Source of the DNA: an uncultured Porphyromonadaceae bacterium
GTDB taxonomy: Bacteria > Bacteroidota > Bacteroidia > Bacteroidales > Muribaculaceae
DNA: 64,000 bases
NCBI GenBank assembly: GCA_947178215.1
Contig: CAMWXJ010000007.1
Coordinates: 1-64,000 of the forward strand
Direction of reading: 5' to 3'
Positions 46,638-53,573 of the stretch are shown here, one piece after another. Positions within the stretch are counted from its first letter, which is position 1; the number at the start of each line of letters is the position of its first letter. Made by a program: the position numbers and the translations under genes. The notes beneath the pieces were generated by a model. The model had not been told where the DNA came from, did not search any database, and worked only from the letters and a program-made list of their open reading frames with translations.

Positions 46638-48653
46638 TCACTCTTTGGAGGCGAGAGCGGAATCAATAACGGAGTCGGATGCATCGACGGGTATTGTGAC
46701 CTTGAAGCCGGGGGTGCGCTCCATTTCGCGCACGATAGCGTCGTGCGCACCCTTGTTGCGTGCCCAGCTGCGGCGTGTGATACCGTTGTTCACGTCCCAG
46801 AAAAGCATCCCGGAGATGCGCTTGGCCGATTCAGGCGAGCCGTCAATCACCATACCGAAACCGCCGTTGATGACCTCGCCCCAGCCTACACCGCCGCCGT
46901 TGTGGAGCGACACCCATGTAGCGCCGCGGAAAGAATCACCGATGACATTCTGCACGGCCATGTCGGCGCAATATTGCGAACCATCGTAGATATTTGAGGT
47001 CTCACGATAGGGCGAGTCTGTGCCGCTCACGTCATGATGGTCACGGCCGAGCACGATCGGGGCTGAGATTTCGCCGCGTGCTATGGCGTCGTTGAACGCG
47101 AGGGCAATCTTGGTGCGGCCCTCACAGTCGGCGTAAAGTATGCGGGCTTGCGAGCCTACAACGAGGTGGTTACGACCGGCCTCCTTAATCCAGTGGATAT
47201 TGTCGTCGAGCTGACCCTTGATATCATCGGGAGCCGATTGGCGTATCTCTTCGAGCACGCGGGCAGCTATCTCGTCGGTCTTGGCGAGGTCGTCGGGATT
47301 GCCCGACGTGCATACCCAGCGGAACGGGCCGAAACCATAGTCGAAGAAGAGGGGGCCCATGATGTCCTGCACATACGACGGATAGCGGAATGTTCCGTCG
47401 GGATTGGTGATGTCGGCGCCAGCGCGCGAACTTTCGAGCAGGAAAGCGTTGCCGTAGTCAAAGAAGTACATTCCGCGGGCTGCGAGCTTGTTGATAGCAT
47501 TCACCTGACGACGCAACGATTCTCTCACGCGCTCCCTGAACTCCTCGGGATTGTCGGCCATCATAGCTTTCGATTCTTCGAGGCTTAGTCCGGCAGGATA
47601 GTAGCCGCCCGCCCACGGGTTGTGAAGCGAGGTCTGGTCAGACCCGAGCTCCACGGTAATATCTTCGTCAGCAAGGCGTTCCCAAAGGTCCACAACATTG
47701 CCTTGATAGGCGAGCGAAACTGCCTCGCCGTTGGCGCGGGCCTCGCGTATGCGCTTCATCAGCTCGTCGAGCGACGTATACACCTCGTCGACCCAACCTT
47801 GCTCGTGACGCTTCTCCACGGCCTTGGGGTTAATCTCAGCCGTCACGCTCACTACTCCGGCTATGTTGCCGGCCTTGGGTTGAGCGCCGCTCATGCCGCC
47901 GAGTCCGGCGGTGACAAAGAGCATTCCGGCAAGCTTTCCGTCGGCCGAATGACGTCGTCCGGCATTAAGTACCGTGATTGTCGTGCCATGGACTATGCCC
48001 TGCGGACCGATATACATGTACGAGCCGGCGGTCATCTGGCCGTACTGGCTAACGCCGAGAGCATTGAGGCGTTCCCAGTCGTCGGGCCTGGAATAGTTGG
48101 GGATAACCATGCCGTTGGTGACTACGACGCGTGGCGCTCCCCTGTGGGAGGGGAACAGGCCGAGCGGATGACCCGAGTACATGACGAGGGTCTGCTCGTC
48201 GGTCATCTCGCTAAGGTAGCGCATCGTGAGCAGGTACTGTGCCCAGTTCTGGAACACGGCGCCGTTGCCGCCGTAGGTTATGAGCTCATGAGGATGCTGT
48301 GCTACGGCCGGGTCGAGATTATTCTGAATCATCAACATTATGGCGGCCGCCTGACGCGACTTTGCGGGGTATTCCTCTATCGGACGGGCATACATCGCGT
48401 AGTCGGGGCGATAGCGATACATGTAGATGCGTCCGTAGTCGTGTAGCTCGCGGGCAAATTCCGGCGCAAGCTCAGCATGCTGGTGCTTGGGGAAGTAGCG
48501 GAGAGCGTTTTTCAGAGCAAGACGCTCTTCGGCGGGAGTAAGAATCTTTTTGCGACGCGGGGCGTGGTTCACCTCAGGGTCGTATGGCTTTGCGGCAGGT
48601 ATCTCGGCAGGTATACCCTGACGGATAGTCCGGCGGAAATCTTCGTTGGTCAT
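46638..48653 (-). CDS. hutU: urocanate hydratase
   Basis: NAD-dependent enzyme of 671 residues that turns urocanate into imidazolonepropionate in histidine degradation. Characteristic blocks are the YSGHPLGLFPSHRGAPRVV region near residue 160, GGMSGAQPKA in the NAD-binding part, and GFGPFRWVCTSGNPDDLA in the later half. The length fits the longer urocanate hydratase form (about 670) rather than the 550-residue HutU. It starts 6 nt after ftcD and is followed by the terminator, so hutI and hutH are not downstream in this transcript. Confidence 0.94.
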   Translation of the reverse strand: MTNEDFRRTIRQGIPAEIPAAKPYDPEVNHAPRRKKILTPAEERLALKNALRYFPKHQHAELAPEFARELHDYGRIYMYRYRPDYAMYARPIEEYPAKSRQAAAIMLMIQNNLDPAVAQHPHELITYGGNGAVFQNWAQYLLTMRYLSEMTDEQTLVMYSGHPLGLFPSHRGAPRVVVTNGMVIPNYSRPDDWERLNALGVSQYGQMTAGSYMYIGPQGIVHGTTITVLNAGRRHSADGKLAGMLFVTAGLGGMSGAQPKAGNIAGVVSVTAEINPKAVEKRHEQGWVDEVYTSLDELMKRIREARANGEAVSLAYQGNVVDLWERLADEDITVELGSDQTSLHNPWAGGYYPAGLSLEESKAMMADNPEEFRERVRESLRRQVNAINKLAARGMYFFDYGNAFLLESSRAGADITNPDGTFRYPSYVQDIMGPLFFDYGFGPFRWVCTSGNPDDLAKTDEIAARVLEEIRQSAPDDIKGQLDDNIHWIKEAGRNHLVVGSQARILYADCEGRTKIALAFNDAIARGEISAPIVLGRDHHDVSGTDSPYRETSNIYDGSQYCADMAVQNVIGDSFRGATWVSLHNGGGVGWGEVINGGFGMVIDGSPESAKRISGMLFWDVNNGITRRSWARNKGAHDAIVREMERTPGFKVTIPVDASDSVIDSALASKE

Positions 48654-48659
48654 GTGATA

Positions 48660-50369
48660 TTATTGACGGTCGATGTTTGCGTTGACTATTTCAAGGACTT
48701 CGGCTTCAAGGCGGCGCGACTCGGCATCGAGCTCGGCAGCCTCGGCGGCAAGTTCGGCAGCCTTGGCCTTGTCGGCGAGACCGGCGGCGTTGATGCGCAC
48801 GTTGAGAGCGGCGCCACGCACAGCGGCACAAGCGGCGAGGGCGCCTACGCCGGCGTCGCTTGCCGAGGCGGGATTGCCTTCACGCGCCACCTGCATCAGC
48901 AGCGGGAACATGGCAAGCGCCTTGCGGGCAGTCGAAAGGGGCACTTCGGCGGCATAGAGCGTGGCGGCTTCGAGGGCGGCGGCGCGGGCCTCCTTCTCTT
49001 CCGGCGACGACTTAGGCATACCGAGTGCATCCATGATACGGTTGAAGGCGGCGGTGTCCTCATCCACAGCATGGAGCAGACCCGACAGATGTTGCTGACC
49101 ATCCACAGCCATGTTGCTGAACTCTTCCCAGCGGTCGTCCCAACCGCGTTTGTGGGCCGAGAGATTTGCGACCATAGTGCCGAGAGCCGCCGCGAGTGCG
49201 CCCATGTAGGCGGATATGGAGCCGCCGCCCGGAGCGGGAGCCTCGGAAGCCGTCGTGTCGGCAAACTCTTTGCAGGTAAGGTCGATGAGACGCTTGACAC
49301 GCGGACCGGCGGCCTCAATCATATATTCCACGACTTTTTCCTCAGGATTGAACGGCTTGAGCTGGTCGAGACCCATTGAGAGGATAGCCATGCGTATAAT
49401 CTCCTCCTCGGGGATGCCAAGCGAACGCTGCTGAAGAGTCAGATAATGACGTCCGGCTTCAAGCAGAGTCGACTTGGGCACAAGGCCCACAATCTCTGTA
49501 CCGGTGACGCGGAGGCCGCGTGCGGCAGCGGCACGGCTCACCTCATCAAAAGCCTTGTGGAGCGGAGTGACGCGACAGTCGGTGATGTTCATCGACACCT
49601 GGGCGATACCGTATTCGTCTATAAACCAACCTATGGCCTTTGTGCCTTTGAGGGTTCCGGGCTGCATCACGGTATTGCCGTTCTCGTCCTTGATGATTTT
49701 GCCGGTCAGTGAGCCCCCCTCACGCATGGGACGGCCTTTTTCGCGTACATCGAAAGCGATGGCGTTGGCGCGACGGGTGGAAGTGGTGTTGAGGTTGAAG
49801 TTGACGGCGATGAGGAAGTCGCGCGCGCCACACGCAGTAGCGCCTGTACGGGCTACTTTCTCGTCAAACGGACGGTTGCCGAAGTCAGGGCCCTTGTCGG
49901 TGTCGCCAAGACGTTCGGGCAATCCCTCGTACTCCCCCTTGCGGCATACGGCGAGGTTCTTGCGCTCGGGGCGGAAAGCTGCGGCCTCGTAGGCGTAAAC
50001 CGGTATTTCAAGCTCGTCGGCTATGCGCTTACCGAGCTTGCGGGCCAGTTCGGCACACTCTTCCAGAGTTATGTTGCTTACCGGTACAAGGGGAAGAACA
50101 TCCGTCGCGCCCATGCGCGGGTGAGCACCATGGTGGCCACGCATATCTATAAACTCGGCCGCTTTTTTGACGCCACGGAAGGCGGCCTCCATGACTGCTT
50201 CCGGCTCGCCTACAAAGGTGACTACCGTACGGTTGGTTGCGGCTCCCGGGTCTACGTCAAGGAGTGTTATTTCGGCGACGCTCTCAATGGCATCGGTTAT
50301 CTGCTTGATAATTTCAGGATTGCGGCCCTCACTGAAATTGGGCACACATTCAATGATTTGTTTTTTCAT
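48660..50369 (-). CDS. ftcD: glutamate formimidoyltransferase / formimidoyl-THF cyclodeaminase
   Basis: A 569-residue fusion enzyme. The N-terminal part (1-330) is the formimidoyltransferase (ECVPNFSEGRNPEII, then HHGAHPRMGATDV with the conserved His residues). The C-terminal part from about 360 is the cyclodeaminase, an all-helical domain with ASEAPAPGGGSISAYMGALA. Together they move the formimino group of formiminoglutamate to tetrahydrofolate and release ammonia. The gene precedes hutU by 6 nt, so the two steps are co-expressed. Confidence 0.95.
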   Translation of the reverse strand: MKKQIIECVPNFSEGRNPEIIKQITDAIESVAEITLLDVDPGAATNRTVVTFVGEPEAVMEAAFRGVKKAAEFIDMRGHHGAHPRMGATDVLPLVPVSNITLEECAELARKLGKRIADELEIPVYAYEAAAFRPERKNLAVCRKGEYEGLPERLGDTDKGPDFGNRPFDEKVARTGATACGARDFLIAVNFNLNTTSTRRANAIAFDVREKGRPMREGGSLTGKIIKDENGNTVMQPGTLKGTKAIGWFIDEYGIAQVSMNITDCRVTPLHKAFDEVSRAAAARGLRVTGTEIVGLVPKSTLLEAGRHYLTLQQRSLGIPEEEIIRMAILSMGLDQLKPFNPEEKVVEYMIEAAGPRVKRLIDLTCKEFADTTASEAPAPGGGSISAYMGALAAALGTMVANLSAHKRGWDDRWEEFSNMAVDGQQHLSGLLHAVDEDTAAFNRIMDALGMPKSSPEEKEARAAALEAATLYAAEVPLSTARKALAMFPLLMQVAREGNPASASDAGVGALAACAAVRGAALNVRINAAGLADKAKAAELAAEAAELDAESRRLEAEVLEIVNANIDRQ

Positions 50370-50391
50370 CGGTATTCTTATTTGTATGACG

Positions 50392-50399
50392 CAAAATTA
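50392..50399 (-). promoter_or_regulatory. candidate -7 box of the ftcD-hutU operon
   Basis: The minus strand reads TAATTTTG, 22 nt before the ftcD start. No clear TTTG is placed 20 nt upstream, which would fit a promoter needing an activator. Confidence 0.4.
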
Positions 50400-50481
50400 A
50401 TGTTTTTTTCACAATCACAGGCGTGGCCATCCACAAATAAATTTCGGAATTTGAGGACGAAACACCCATATTGTTGCAAAA

Positions 50482-50499
50482 GTATGTTGTAAAACATAC
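50482..50499. repeat. 7-bp palindrome between ftcD and the EF-G2 gene
   Basis: GTATGTT and AACATAC (50482-50488 and 50493-50499) are separated by GTAA. A second TACTTTTG box on the minus strand (50484-50477) overlaps its left arm. It may be an operator of the hut operon, but this is tentative. Confidence 0.4.
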
Positions 50500-50613
50500 A
50501 TCCCAGCGGCGAATCCACCACCTTTTTTCACTAAATTTAGCCCCTGAATTGCTACTGCAATCTCTCTCCTGCCACCTAAGAATACTAATATCAACCTATA
50601 AACCCCATTGACC

Positions 50614-52773
50614 ATGAAGGTTTATCAGACCAACGAAATCAAAAACATCGCCCTGCTCGGTAGCAAGGGCTCCGGTAAAACCACACTCGCGGAAGCTATG
50701 CTCTACGAGTGTGGAGTGATAAAACGCCGCGGCACCATAGAAGCCGGCTCAACGGTAAGCGACTACTTCCCCGTAGAAAAGGAATACGGCTACTCGGTGT
50801 TCTCAACCGTGTTCTACGCCGAATTTCTCGGCAAGAAGCTCAACGTGATAGACTGCCCGGGCGCCGACGACTTCGTTGGCAACGCCATCACCGCACTCGG
50901 TGTCACCGACACCGGCGTGATTGTGGTCGACGCACAATATGGCGTTGAGGTAGGCACACAGAACATATTCCGCACATGCGCCTCCGTCAACAAGCCGGTG
51001 ATTTTCGCCGTCAACCAGCTCGACGGTGAGAAAGCAGACTTCGACAACACGCTCGAACAGCTGCGCGAGGTATTCGGCAACAAAGTTATTCCAATCCAAT
51101 ATCCCATAAGCGTAGGCCCCGGCTTCAACGCCATGATTGACGTGCTCCTCATGAAAAAGTACTCATGGGGACCCGACGGTGGCGTACCTACAATAGAAGA
51201 AATTCCCGCCGACCAGATGGACCGCGCCATGGAGCTTCACAAGCAGCTCGTCGAGGCAGCCGCCGAGAACGACGAGGGCCTTATGGACAAGTTCTTTGAA
51301 GAAGAGCATCTCACCGAGGACGAGATGCGCATGGGTATCCGCAAGGGCCTTATCGACCGCTCCATCTATCCAGTGTTCTGCGTCAGCGCACTCAAAGACA
51401 TGGGTGTGCGCCGCATGATGGAGTTCCTTGGCAATGTAGTGCCGTTTGTCGACGACATGCCCGCTCCCACCGACACAGTCGGCACTGTGGTTGAGCCCAA
51501 GGCCGACGGCCCTCTCAGCGTATTCGTATTCAAGACCACAATCGAGCCGCATATCGGCGAAGTGAGCTACTTCAAGGTAATGAGCGGCACCCTCAACGCC
51601 GGCACCGACCTCGACAACGTGTCGCGCGGCTCCAAAGAGCGCCTCGCGCAGATATTCTGCGTGTGCGGCCAGATTAAGACCCCTGTCGACACTCTCGTAG
51701 CCGGCGACATTGGCGCCACTGTTAAGCTCAAAGACGTGCGCACCGGCAACACCCTCGACGCCAAGGGATGCGACTACACATTCGACTTCATCAAATATCC
51801 CGCACCCAAGTATCAGCGCGCAATACGTCCCGCCACGGAGAGCGACGCCGAAAAGCTCGCCGCTATCCTCACCCGCATGCACGAAGAGGACCCCACATGG
51901 GTAGTTGAAATGTCGAAGGAGCTCAAACAGACCATTCTCAAAGGTCAGGGCGAATTCCACCTCCGCACCCTCAAATGGCGCGTCGAGAACAACGACAAGC
52001 TCCCGATCATATTTGAGGAGCCGAAGATTCCTTACCGCGAAACCATAACCAAAGCCGCCCGCGCCGACTATCGTCACAAGAAGCAGAGCGGAGGCTCGGG
52101 TCAGTTCGGCGAGGTACATCTCATCATCGAGCCTTACACCGAAGGTATGCCCGCTCCCACAAGCTACCGTTTCGGCAACCAGGAGTATGTTATGAAGGTG
52201 CGCGACACCCAGGAGATACCCCTCGAATGGGGCGGCAAGCTCGTGGTGTGCGACTGCATCGTAGGCGGCGCCATCGACACCCGCTTCATCCCCGCTATCG
52301 TAAAGGGTCTGATGGACCGCATGGAGCAGGGCCCGCTCACCGGCTCATACGCCCGCGACGTGCGTGTGTGCATCTACGACGGCAAAATGCATCCTGTTGA
52401 CTCCAACGAAATATCATTCCGCCTCGCCGGTCGCAACGCTTTCAGCGAAGCCTTCCGCAACGCAAACCCCAAGATTCTCGAACCCATCTATGACCTCGAA
52501 GTCATGGTGCCCTCCGACGTAATGGGCGACGTGATGAGCGACCTTCAGGGACGCCGCGGCATCATCATGGGCATGGACAGCGAAAACGGCTTCCAGAAAA
52601 TTTCGGCCAAAGTGCCTCTCAAAGAACTGAGCAGCTACTCGACGGCCCTCTCGTCGATAACAGGCGGACGCTCGTCGTTTACAATGAACTTCTCGAGCTA
52701 TGAGCTCGTGCCCGGCGACGTACAGGACAAGCTCCTTAAAGAGTACGCCGAAAAGACGGCAGGTGAAGAGTAA
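50614..52773 (+). CDS. EF-G paralogue (EF-G2-like) with altered GTPase motifs
   Basis: A 719-residue elongation-factor G homologue with all five EF-G domains by length. The P-loop GSKGSGKT (16-23) is kept. The switch-I motif, usually RGIT, reads YGYS. The DTPGH motif reads DCPGA, so the catalytic His is Ala84. NKxD reads NQLD (134-137). EF-G2 of Bacteroides, as I recall from published work in B. thetaiotaomicron, supports translocation without GTP hydrolysis during starvation and is needed in the gut. This gene looks like its orthologue. The ATG at 50614 was chosen over a TTG two codons earlier. It is monocistronic and ends at a strong terminator. Confidence 0.88.
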   Translation: MKVYQTNEIKNIALLGSKGSGKTTLAEAMLYECGVIKRRGTIEAGSTVSDYFPVEKEYGYSVFSTVFYAEFLGKKLNVIDCPGADDFVGNAITALGVTDTGVIVVDAQYGVEVGTQNIFRTCASVNKPVIFAVNQLDGEKADFDNTLEQLREVFGNKVIPIQYPISVGPGFNAMIDVLLMKKYSWGPDGGVPTIEEIPADQMDRAMELHKQLVEAAAENDEGLMDKFFEEEHLTEDEMRMGIRKGLIDRSIYPVFCVSALKDMGVRRMMEFLGNVVPFVDDMPAPTDTVGTVVEPKADGPLSVFVFKTTIEPHIGEVSYFKVMSGTLNAGTDLDNVSRGSKERLAQIFCVCGQIKTPVDTLVAGDIGATVKLKDVRTGNTLDAKGCDYTFDFIKYPAPKYQRAIRPATESDAEKLAAILTRMHEEDPTWVVEMSKELKQTILKGQGEFHLRTLKWRVENNDKLPIIFEEPKIPYRETITKAARADYRHKKQSGGSGQFGEVHLIIEPYTEGMPAPTSYRFGNQEYVMKVRDTQEIPLEWGGKLVVCDCIVGGAIDTRFIPAIVKGLMDRMEQGPLTGSYARDVRVCIYDGKMHPVDSNEISFRLAGRNAFSEAFRNANPKILEPIYDLEVMVPSDVMGDVMSDLQGRRGIIMGMDSENGFQKISAKVPLKELSSYSTALSSITGGRSSFTMNFSSYELVPGDVQDKLLKEYAEKTAGEE

Positions 52774-52806
52774 TCCTCACCGCGCAGACAGCGATATAAT
52801 TACACA

Positions 52807-52844
52807 CTTCGGGCCGCTCCTGACGGAGCGGCCCGAAGATTTTT
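52807..52844 (+). terminator. Rho-independent terminator of the EF-G2 gene
   Basis: CTTCGGGCCGCTCC (52807-52820) and GGAGCGGCCCGAAG (52825-52838) form a perfect 14-bp stem with a TGAC loop, followed by ATTTTT on the plus strand. Confidence 0.92.
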
Positions 52845-52871
52845 GTCGTACTGCCTGAGGCAGAAAAACGA

Positions 52872-53573
52872 TTACTGAAGCGTGCCGGCCTCGGCTTTCT
52901 GAACCATGGCCTGGTTGGCGAGGATATAAATCTCTACACGGCGATTCTGGGCACGGCCGGCTGCTGTCTCGTTGGAGGCCACATAATCCTGCATAGGCAG
53001 GCCCTTGGCAGTCATACGGATTGCCGGGATGCCGCTTTCGATGAGATATGTCTCTACGGCGTCGGCTCGACCGTTGGCGACACGGGTGTTCACTTCAAGC
53101 GAGCCGGTGTTGTCAGTAAAACCGTAGATCTGCACGTCGGTGTCGGGGTTGGCGAGGAGCGACGCGGCAAACTTGGTGAGGTCCTTGCGGGCGTTGGTGC
53201 TGAGCGTGGTGCCGTTGGTGGGGAAGAGGATTCCACCTTCAAAGGTCACGCGAATGGCGGTGAGGCCGTTGTTGTCGGTCACGGTGTCGACGGTAGCGGC
53301 GCCTGCGAGTTCCTTTTCAAGCTCGGCTTTCTGCTGATCCATCTTGCGTCCGATAAGCATACCGGCTCCTGAGCCTACGGCTGCACCGATAGCCGCACCG
53401 ATGCCGGCACCCTTGCCGCCGCCTATTAGCGCGCCTATGCCGGCGCCTGCGGCTGCGCCCGAACCGCCGCCTATGGCTGCGCCTTTACCGAGGTTGGTCA
53501 TGCTTGAACATGACGAAGTAATCAGGAGGCTGAGGGCAACGCCCGCGGCAGCCAATGTCTTGATAAGCTTCAT
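52872..53573 (-). CDS. OmpA-family lipoprotein with glycine zipper
   Basis: A 233-residue lipoprotein (lipobox SSC, Cys22). After the lipobox come Gly/Ala-rich zipper segments (GAAIGGGSGAAAGAGIGALI) that can insert in a membrane or pack helices. Then follows an OmpA C-terminal domain with FPTNGTTLSTNARKDL, IYGFTDNTGSLEVN and AGRAQNRRVEIYI, where the Asp and Arg contact peptidoglycan. It probably links the outer membrane to the cell wall, like YiaD-type proteins. It has its own promoter and is convergent with the EF-G2 gene. Confidence 0.9.
   Translation of the reverse strand: MKLIKTLAAAGVALSLLITSSCSSMTNLGKGAAIGGGSGAAAGAGIGALIGGGKGAGIGAAIGAAVGSGAGMLIGRKMDQQKAELEKELAGAATVDTVTDNNGLTAIRVTFEGGILFPTNGTTLSTNARKDLTKFAASLLANPDTDVQIYGFTDNTGSLEVNTRVANGRADAVETYLIESGIPAIRMTAKGLPMQDYVASNETAAGRAQNRRVEIYILANQAMVQKAEAGTLQ

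Follow-up and report, generated by a model that had tools for sequence, protein, structure and literature searches.

The EF-G2 gene and its motifs

The locus encodes an EF-G paralog of 719 amino acids at positions 50614-52773 on the forward strand of the window, as the whole stretch of 64,000 nucleotides that was analyzed is called here. The reading frame is intact and its translation contains five EF-G domains (Pfam), in agreement with the initial annotation, which had described a full-length EF-G body. The ATG at 50614 is preferred as the start over a TTG two codons upstream, which is present in the list of open reading frames, because the N-terminal sequence MKVYQTNE is shared with the Protein Data Bank entries 7uvp and 8dmf. 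The features of the locus are collected in Table 1.

Table 1. Features of the EF-G2 locus and their positions in the window
Feature	Positions	Strand	Basis
Coding sequence of EF-G2, fusA2 type (719 aa), starting with the ATG at 50614	50614..52773	+	Family model, Pfam, N-terminus MKVYQTNE
P-loop GSKGSGKT, residues 16-23; Gly19 where canonical EF-G has Asp	50659..50682	+	
Switch I YGYS, residues 58-61 (canonical RGIT)	50785..50796	+	YGYSV given for Bacteroidetes EFG II (PMC3150367)
Switch II DCPGA, residues 80-84; Ala84 in place of the catalytic His	50851..50865	+	Alignment
G4 motif NQLD, residues 134-137	51013..51024	+	Alignment
Domain IV insert of 27 residues, 512-538, absent from EF-G1; predicted to be largely β-strands	52147..52227	+	Alignment, model
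Predicted Cur/BT4338-type palindrome TATGTTGTAAAACATA, 14 of 14 specified bases	50483..50498	.	Consensus of PMC6989115 and PMC3878776
-7-like box TAAATTTA, at an offset of 49 nt from the start of the Cur-type site	50532..50539	+	Box present before 58 of 61 orthologues
Intrinsic terminator stem-loop, 14 pairs, followed by a T tail	52807..52838	+	Terminator scan

The altered GTPase motifs DCPGA, NQLD and YGYS were found exactly as they had first been read, and GKT is retained at Gly21-Lys22-Thr23. The genome to which the window belongs (G000; 2.5 Mb in 48 contigs) has one canonical EF-G, located on contig C30, which is the single match above the TIGR00484 cut-off. When aligned with the window protein, this canonical EF-G has LIDTPGHVDF, YVNKMD and ERGITI at the equivalent columns. 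The motif changes are common to the orthologues of the window protein and are therefore no chance changes. The initial annotation had overlooked two further features, Gly19 at the place of the P-loop Asp and the insert in domain IV.

Family assignment

Judged from its sequence, the gene is orthologous to the one for EF-G2 in Bacteroides thetaiotaomicron (fusA2/BT2167; its product is abbreviated BtEF-G2). The window protein scores 1317 bits with the family model NF058620 (EFG2_Bacteroid; cut-off 1000). Its best match by sequence among solved structures is 7uvp/8dmf, over the full length and with 1215 bits, and the title of 8dmf is that of a ribosome-bound B. thetaiotaomicron EF-G2. The predicted fold gives the same answer in Foldseek, where 8dmf ranks first with a TM score of 0.90 and 73% identity over the full length; ordering by the VIA-align Z score places ten EF-G family chains above 8dmf.

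Two trees of 59 and 62 rows were built with a quick method and one support measure. In both, the window protein lies in the Bacteroidales EF-G2 clade with a support of 100 (20 and 16 rows, respectively), away from EF-G1. The first tree has a long PrfC branch and sets the window protein apart from this release factor 3; the second, built without PrfC, agrees with the first. Bacteroides EF-G2 is represented in the trees by the proteins of B. faecis and B. salyersiae, that of B. thetaiotaomicron being left out. Thus the EF-G2 type proposed in the initial annotation is upheld by the family model, by the sequence and fold match to the BtEF-G2 structure and by the trees. Furthermore, Gly16 and Leu25, which mark the EFG II subfamily, are present in 86 of 86 Bacteroidales proteins, the 26 of 26 EF-G1 proteins having Ala and Thr instead; the window protein lacks RGITI.

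An assignment to canonical EF-G was rejected, with a TIGR00484 score of 518.5 bits below the cut-off of 659.4, Ala84 in place of the histidine and the contrary position in the trees. Tetracycline ribosomal protection was rejected on family scores alone, as such proteins are absent from the trees: the scores are 247.5 bits for tet_protect (NF012153; cut-off 775) and 118.7 bits for TetQ (cut-off 1425). The PDB sequence table nevertheless labels 7uvp/8dmf as TetQ, although 8dmf, with an identical sequence, carries the title of a B. thetaiotaomicron EF-G2. The names given to this protein in databases can therefore mislead. The NF058620 cut-off of 1000 is also passed by proteins from outside the Bacteroidales (L095, L096 and L098) that have DTPGY or DTPGF and a shorter insert, so the name of this model does not imply the features characterized in BtEF-G2.

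Distribution and samples compared

NF058620 is exceeded in 56 of 59 Muribaculaceae genomes, and in 51 of 51 of those with a completeness of 90% or more and a contamination of no more than 5%. EF-G2 is a core gene of this family. The cut-off is also exceeded in 134 of 149 genomes of the order and in 22 of 395 genomes of the phylum; a match with E ≤1e-250 is present in 102 of these 395.

Four sets of proteins were compared. The Bacteroidales set (n = 86) consists of the window protein, the best 80 of 583 loci and five proteins from the search of the 395 phylum genomes; being the best 80 of 583, the loci are biased towards close relatives, and the same species may be counted twice between the 80-locus collection and the other genomes. 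The wider EFG II set (n = 96) holds every match outside the Bacteroidales with E ≤1e-250 in the 395 genomes, so that weaker members of the subfamily could hold the histidine. The EF-G1 set (n = 26) is made up of the canonical EF-G of the same genome and the 25 best-scoring matches. Twenty further Bacteroidales proteins were picked by hand to span NF058620 scores of 1006-1300 bits. The window itself (L001 and L094), a part of its own EF-G1 (L003) and PrfC (L004, used in one tree only) were left out of the counts.

One internal stop codon is found in the matched stretch of each of two EF-G2 relatives (L171 in G296, and G503:C36:10807-12948). In 16 of 61 genomes (e.g. G001, G004, G009 and G014) two proteins exceed the canonical EF-G cut-off. 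The second copy scores 675-707 bits in 12 of these genomes and 900-966 bits in four; such copies are further EF-G lineages besides EFG II.

The GTPase center

The switch II histidine is present in none of the 202 EFG II proteins compared, whereas all 26 canonical EF-G proteins have it. The residue that takes its place at site 84 is variable. It is Ala in 58, Ser in 25, Met in two and Gly in one of the 86 Bacteroidales proteins; in the wider set of 96 it is Thr (45), Tyr (27), Leu (10), Phe (6), Ser (6), Pro (1) or Ala (1); and among the 20 further Bacteroidales proteins it is Ala (5), Phe (5), Ser (4), Leu (2) or, once each, Gly, Pro, Met and Tyr. The P-loop Asp, which takes part in catalysis via a monovalent ion, is present in 26 of 26 EF-G1 proteins, absent from 86 of 86 Bacteroidales EF-G2 proteins and retained in two of the 96 wider EFG II proteins.

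Lys22, Thr23, Asp80, Pro82, Gly83, Asn134 and Asp137 are invariant in 182 of 182 EFG II proteins. Among the 20 further Bacteroidales proteins, Asp137 is replaced by Glu in five and Pro82 is missing in one; G4 is therefore not fixed among those Bacteroidales. The five proteins (L251-L254 and L242) have NxLE in place of NxLD, which could affect the specificity for guanine. Overall, the alignments indicate that the hydrolysis residues are lost, that the residues for GTP binding are largely kept, and that this pattern is far older than gut Bacteroides.

The loss of the histidine alone does not prove the loss of GTP hydrolysis, because GTP hydrolysis without it has been reported. Thermus EF-G-2 (1wdt), in which switch II reads DAPGYGDF, is reported to bind and hydrolyze GTP and to make poly(Phe) (PMC3150367). 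One study of E. coli EF-G found that the H91A mutant hydrolyzes GTP about seven-fold more slowly, with a rate of 28 per second, and it also cites other groups for complete or significant impairment (PMC4532990). M. smegmatis EF-G2 (9k0z), with DTPGYADF in switch II, is described as lacking ribosome-dependent GTPase activity (PMC3150367); a search of the open-access literature gave no paper naming 9K0Z. A Ser at the position of the Mg-coordinating Thr is considered to preserve the role of that residue (PMC3150367).

The case for hydrolysis-free translocation therefore rests on orthology to BtEF-G2. The latter is reported to enable GTP-independent translation (PMC10294740), is described as an EF-G paralog that translocates without GTP hydrolysis (PMC12775393) and, by the title of a cited paper, lacks GTPase activity. 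The reading of the window protein as a hydrolysis-free factor, put forward initially with the lost histidine in view, thus stands on its orthology, but the histidine by itself does not carry it. Orthology and the insert in domain IV are more telling than the loss of the histidine.

The domain IV insert

Residues 512-538 have no partner in the alignment with the EF-G1 of the same genome, and most of this segment is predicted to form β-strands. The stretch from GQFGEV to IVGGAI, within which the segment can be measured across the family, measures 59 residues in all 86 Bacteroidales proteins, 50 in all 96 proteins of the wider EFG II set and 30-32 in all 26 EF-G1 proteins. The 20 further Bacteroidales proteins divide into 14 with 59-61 residues and six with 50. 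The EFG II proteins are thus longer than EF-G1 by either 18-20 or 27-29 residues. On the tree built without PrfC, with the states coded by hand, the insert length changes once.

A 2023 EMBO J abstract reportedly describes a region of about 26 residues that is unique to EF-G2 and responsible for its lack of GTPase activity. Residues 512-538 are likely this region. The insert probably helps the window protein to leave the ribosome without GTP hydrolysis.

The upstream region and the terminator

The gene is preceded by a gap of 244 nt with a GC content of 39%, compared to 57% for the gene itself and 56% for the window, which bears out the long AT-rich upstream region of the initial annotation. 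A scan for intrinsic terminators returned five sites, against a mean of 3.0 in shuffled sequence, and only the site downstream of the gene exceeds 10 pairs; this predicted structure, with its 14-pair stem and T tail, corresponds to the strong terminator of the initial annotation. At the gathering threshold, Rfam gave no structured RNA match in 50300-53000. A scan for σ70 promoters gave four hits, all within the gene, against a shuffle mean of 1.6, and was not used.

In B. thetaiotaomicron, fusA2 is induced by BT4338/Cur via a 22-bp site (PMC6989115), and the published Cur consensus is wwwTATGTTnTAnAACATAwww (PMC6989115, PMC3878776). The predicted Cur-type site of the window lies 131 bases before the ATG, and none of 100 mononucleotide shuffles contained an equally good one. 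At least 12 of the 14 specified bases are matched in 62 of 83 orthologue upstreams (the 86 orthologues minus three with less than 250 nt of upstream sequence). The 21 upstreams below this score include L025, L038, L060, L068, L075, L076 and several named Bacteroides. Among the named Bacteroides in general, scores of only 10-12 are frequent, mostly at the same place near -131. No site with at least 12 matches was found in the 24 upstreams scanned for the 96 wider EFG II genes or in those of the 20 further Bacteroidales genes; in each of these two groups the best score was 11, reached by two members.

In 58 of 61 upstreams, a -7-like box begins 40-62 nt past the start of the site; its offset is 49, the spacing in the window, in 46 of them and 48 in 10. 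The comparison required 250 nt of upstream sequence with 90 nt separating the site from the ATG, which left 61 of the 62 upstreams that have a site. In 200 shuffles of the same stretch the mean was 3.6 and the maximum 10; these numbers refer to a loose pattern, TA[ACT][ACT]TT[TG][GCA], that was taken from the conservation of each column and set after the data had been seen. The strict box TAnnTTTG is weak, with six and five of 61 upstreams at offsets 48 and 49, respectively, and eight of 62 at offset 16.

The gene neighborhood is not conserved. Six neighbors in the window (hutU, ftcD, an OmpA-like gene, EamA, a 211-aa gene and a gene resembling dnaN, which was identified by eye) were sought in the loci of 80 relatives, within flanks that never exceeded 6 kb and were often shorter. 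Five of them recur in none of the 80 and the OmpA-like gene in one. Since the site and the box are conserved and the neighbors are not, gene, site and box travel as a unit without synteny. The separate expression unit proposed at the outset is thereby supported and can be sharpened to a predicted Cur-type promoter consisting of the site and the -7-like box. Directly upstream of EF-G2 and divergent from it, at 46638-50369 of the reverse strand, are genes for urocanate hydratase and a fused formiminotransferase-cyclodeaminase; histidine-degradation genes adjoining EF-G2 were absent from the loci of the 80 relatives.

A candidate regulator

The genome to which the window belongs contains five perfect Cur-type sites. 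There are 20 places with no more than two mismatches, compared to nine for the reversed pattern. Apart from the perfect site before EF-G2, three are located 81-219 nt before genes for SusC-type TonB-dependent receptors, and one is located 685 nt before a GH97 gene. Sites with one mismatch number four, of which two were assigned to a gene. One of these (L149 1501; G000:C5:105948) lies 176 nt before a gene for a membrane H+-pyrophosphatase, another energy-saving enzyme, which may belong to the same regulon.

Another one-mismatch site lies 107 nt upstream of a Crp-family gene (L154 1036-1734). A similar site is reported upstream of BT4338 and its orthologues, where it suggested autoregulation (PMC3878776). 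Relatives of this Crp-family protein with 55-57% identity were found in five of five Bacteroidales genomes that have EF-G2; outside the order the best matches, in three of three genomes, have an identity of only 24-27%. The protein is a candidate for Cur. A second Crp-type gene (L155) has no Cur-type site in about 1 kb of upstream sequence.

Proposed function

The window gene very probably encodes a Cur-induced EF-G2 translocase that works without GTP hydrolysis during starvation and is the orthologue of fusA2. On carbon starvation, the Crp-family regulator, a candidate orthologue of Cur/BT4338, would bind the palindrome at 50483-50498 and thereby activate transcription at the -7-like box (50532-50539); the message would end at the terminator, 52807-52838. 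Since the GTP-binding residues are kept, the protein should bind GTP, and it would enter the ribosomal A site as EF-G does and shift the tRNA-mRNA complex with binding energy. The switch II histidine and the P-loop Asp are lacking, and the insert in domain IV would probably aid the exit from the ribosome. The orthology, the motifs, the insert, the promoter elements and the candidate regulator come from the present analysis. Induction, hydrolysis-free translocation and a need for the gene in the gut are carried over by analogy from published work on B. thetaiotaomicron, in which the need of EF-G2 for gut colonization has been demonstrated (PMC6989115).

Three other explanations were weighed. 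It is unlikely that the protein, although an EF-G2 by descent, is a slow ribosomal GTPase that relies on other residues and serves in slow translocation. Thermus EF-G-2, with its Tyr, the residual rate of E. coli H91A and the Ser that is considered to stand in for the Mg-coordinating Thr would all accommodate such an activity (PMC3150367, PMC4532990), but the nearest characterized relative, BtEF-G2, with 73% identity, is described as enabling GTP-independent translation (PMC10294740) and, by the title of a cited paper, as devoid of GTPase activity. Furthermore, the window protein has the 27-residue insert, which Thermus EF-G-2 probably lacks, as its chain length of 665 residues suggests.

A factor for ribosome recycling or rescue, rather than an elongation translocase, is less probable still. 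Such a division of labor has precedents in the Borrelia EF-G paralogs, which divide translocation and recycling between them (PMC3150367), and in the mitochondrial EF-G homolog that is specific for recycling (PMC8203779), and an altered GTPase center with an insert in domain IV would be compatible with another task. However, the sequence is closest to BtEF-G2, the reported enabler of GTP-free translation (PMC10294740), and is far from mitochondrial EF-G2 (228-242 bits compared to 1215). Finally, a tetracycline ribosomal protection protein, as the TetQ label on 7uvp/8dmf would have it, or a decaying EF-G copy is refuted as far as sequence can do so, by family scores far below both cut-offs, the intact frame, the seven binding-site residues invariant in all 182 proteins and the presence of the gene in every well-assembled genome of the family. 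The Cur-induced, hydrolysis-free translocase remains the preferred function.

Novelty and implications

YGYSV as a mark of Bacteroidetes EFG II has been in print since 2011 (PMC3150367), and EF-G2 and its control by Cur since 2020-2023 (PMC6989115, PMC10294740). Among the matches listed in a search of the open-access literature, no title dealt with EF-G2 of the Muribaculaceae or with site 84 in the phylum as a whole. New here are the promoter unit of the Muribaculaceae gene and the candidate regulator, together with the finding that all EFG II proteins examined in the phylum lack the histidine and the caution that this lack alone does not decide GTPase activity. The window gene is an ordinary one for this group of gut bacteria.

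The Muribaculaceae are abundant in the mouse gut. With EF-G2 in 51 of 51 well-assembled genomes they form a second bacterial family that carries this factor, and this prevalence together with the starvation-type promoter found here makes energy-saving translation a likely core trait of related gut families. More tentatively, and with the balance of our judgment against it, the hydrolysis center may have been stripped across the EFG II proteins of the Bacteroidota, possibly in free-living lineages too; the Bacteroidales would later have gained the longer insert, and some of them YGYS as well as control by Cur, giving a starvation factor. If this phylum-wide reading is true, hydrolysis-free translocation is no invention of gut Bacteroides. 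The natural series of residues at site 84 (Ala, Ser, Gly, Met, Thr, Tyr, Phe, Leu and Pro), combined with the insert lengths, offers material on what abolishes GTP hydrolysis.

Comparison with known systems

The closest known system is BtEF-G2 (BT2167; 8dmf, 7uvp), which resembles the window protein in its fold, in YGYS, in DCPG followed by a small residue and in NQLD, and whose gene also has an upstream Cur-type site. The two differ at site 84, where BtEF-G2 has Ser and the window protein has Ala. Moreover, the window site matches 14 of 14 specified bases, whereas the published B. thetaiotaomicron site matches 12 of 14 by our count.

The EFG II subfamily as defined by Margus et al. in 2011 (PMC3150367) shares Gly16, Leu25 and the Bacteroidetes G2 motif YGYSV with the window protein. 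That paper gives G3 as DxPG, and the word histidine is absent from its main text. The proteins from Thermus (1wdt) and M. smegmatis (9k0z) are like the window protein in that the catalytic histidine is replaced, in both cases by Tyr, but they are much more distant from it, with 380 and 323 bits, respectively, compared to 1215 for BtEF-G2. The canonical EF-G of the same genome can be aligned over the whole length of the window protein, with 33-44% identity in pieces. Unlike the window protein, it has the histidine, the P-loop Asp and RGIT, and it lacks the insert.
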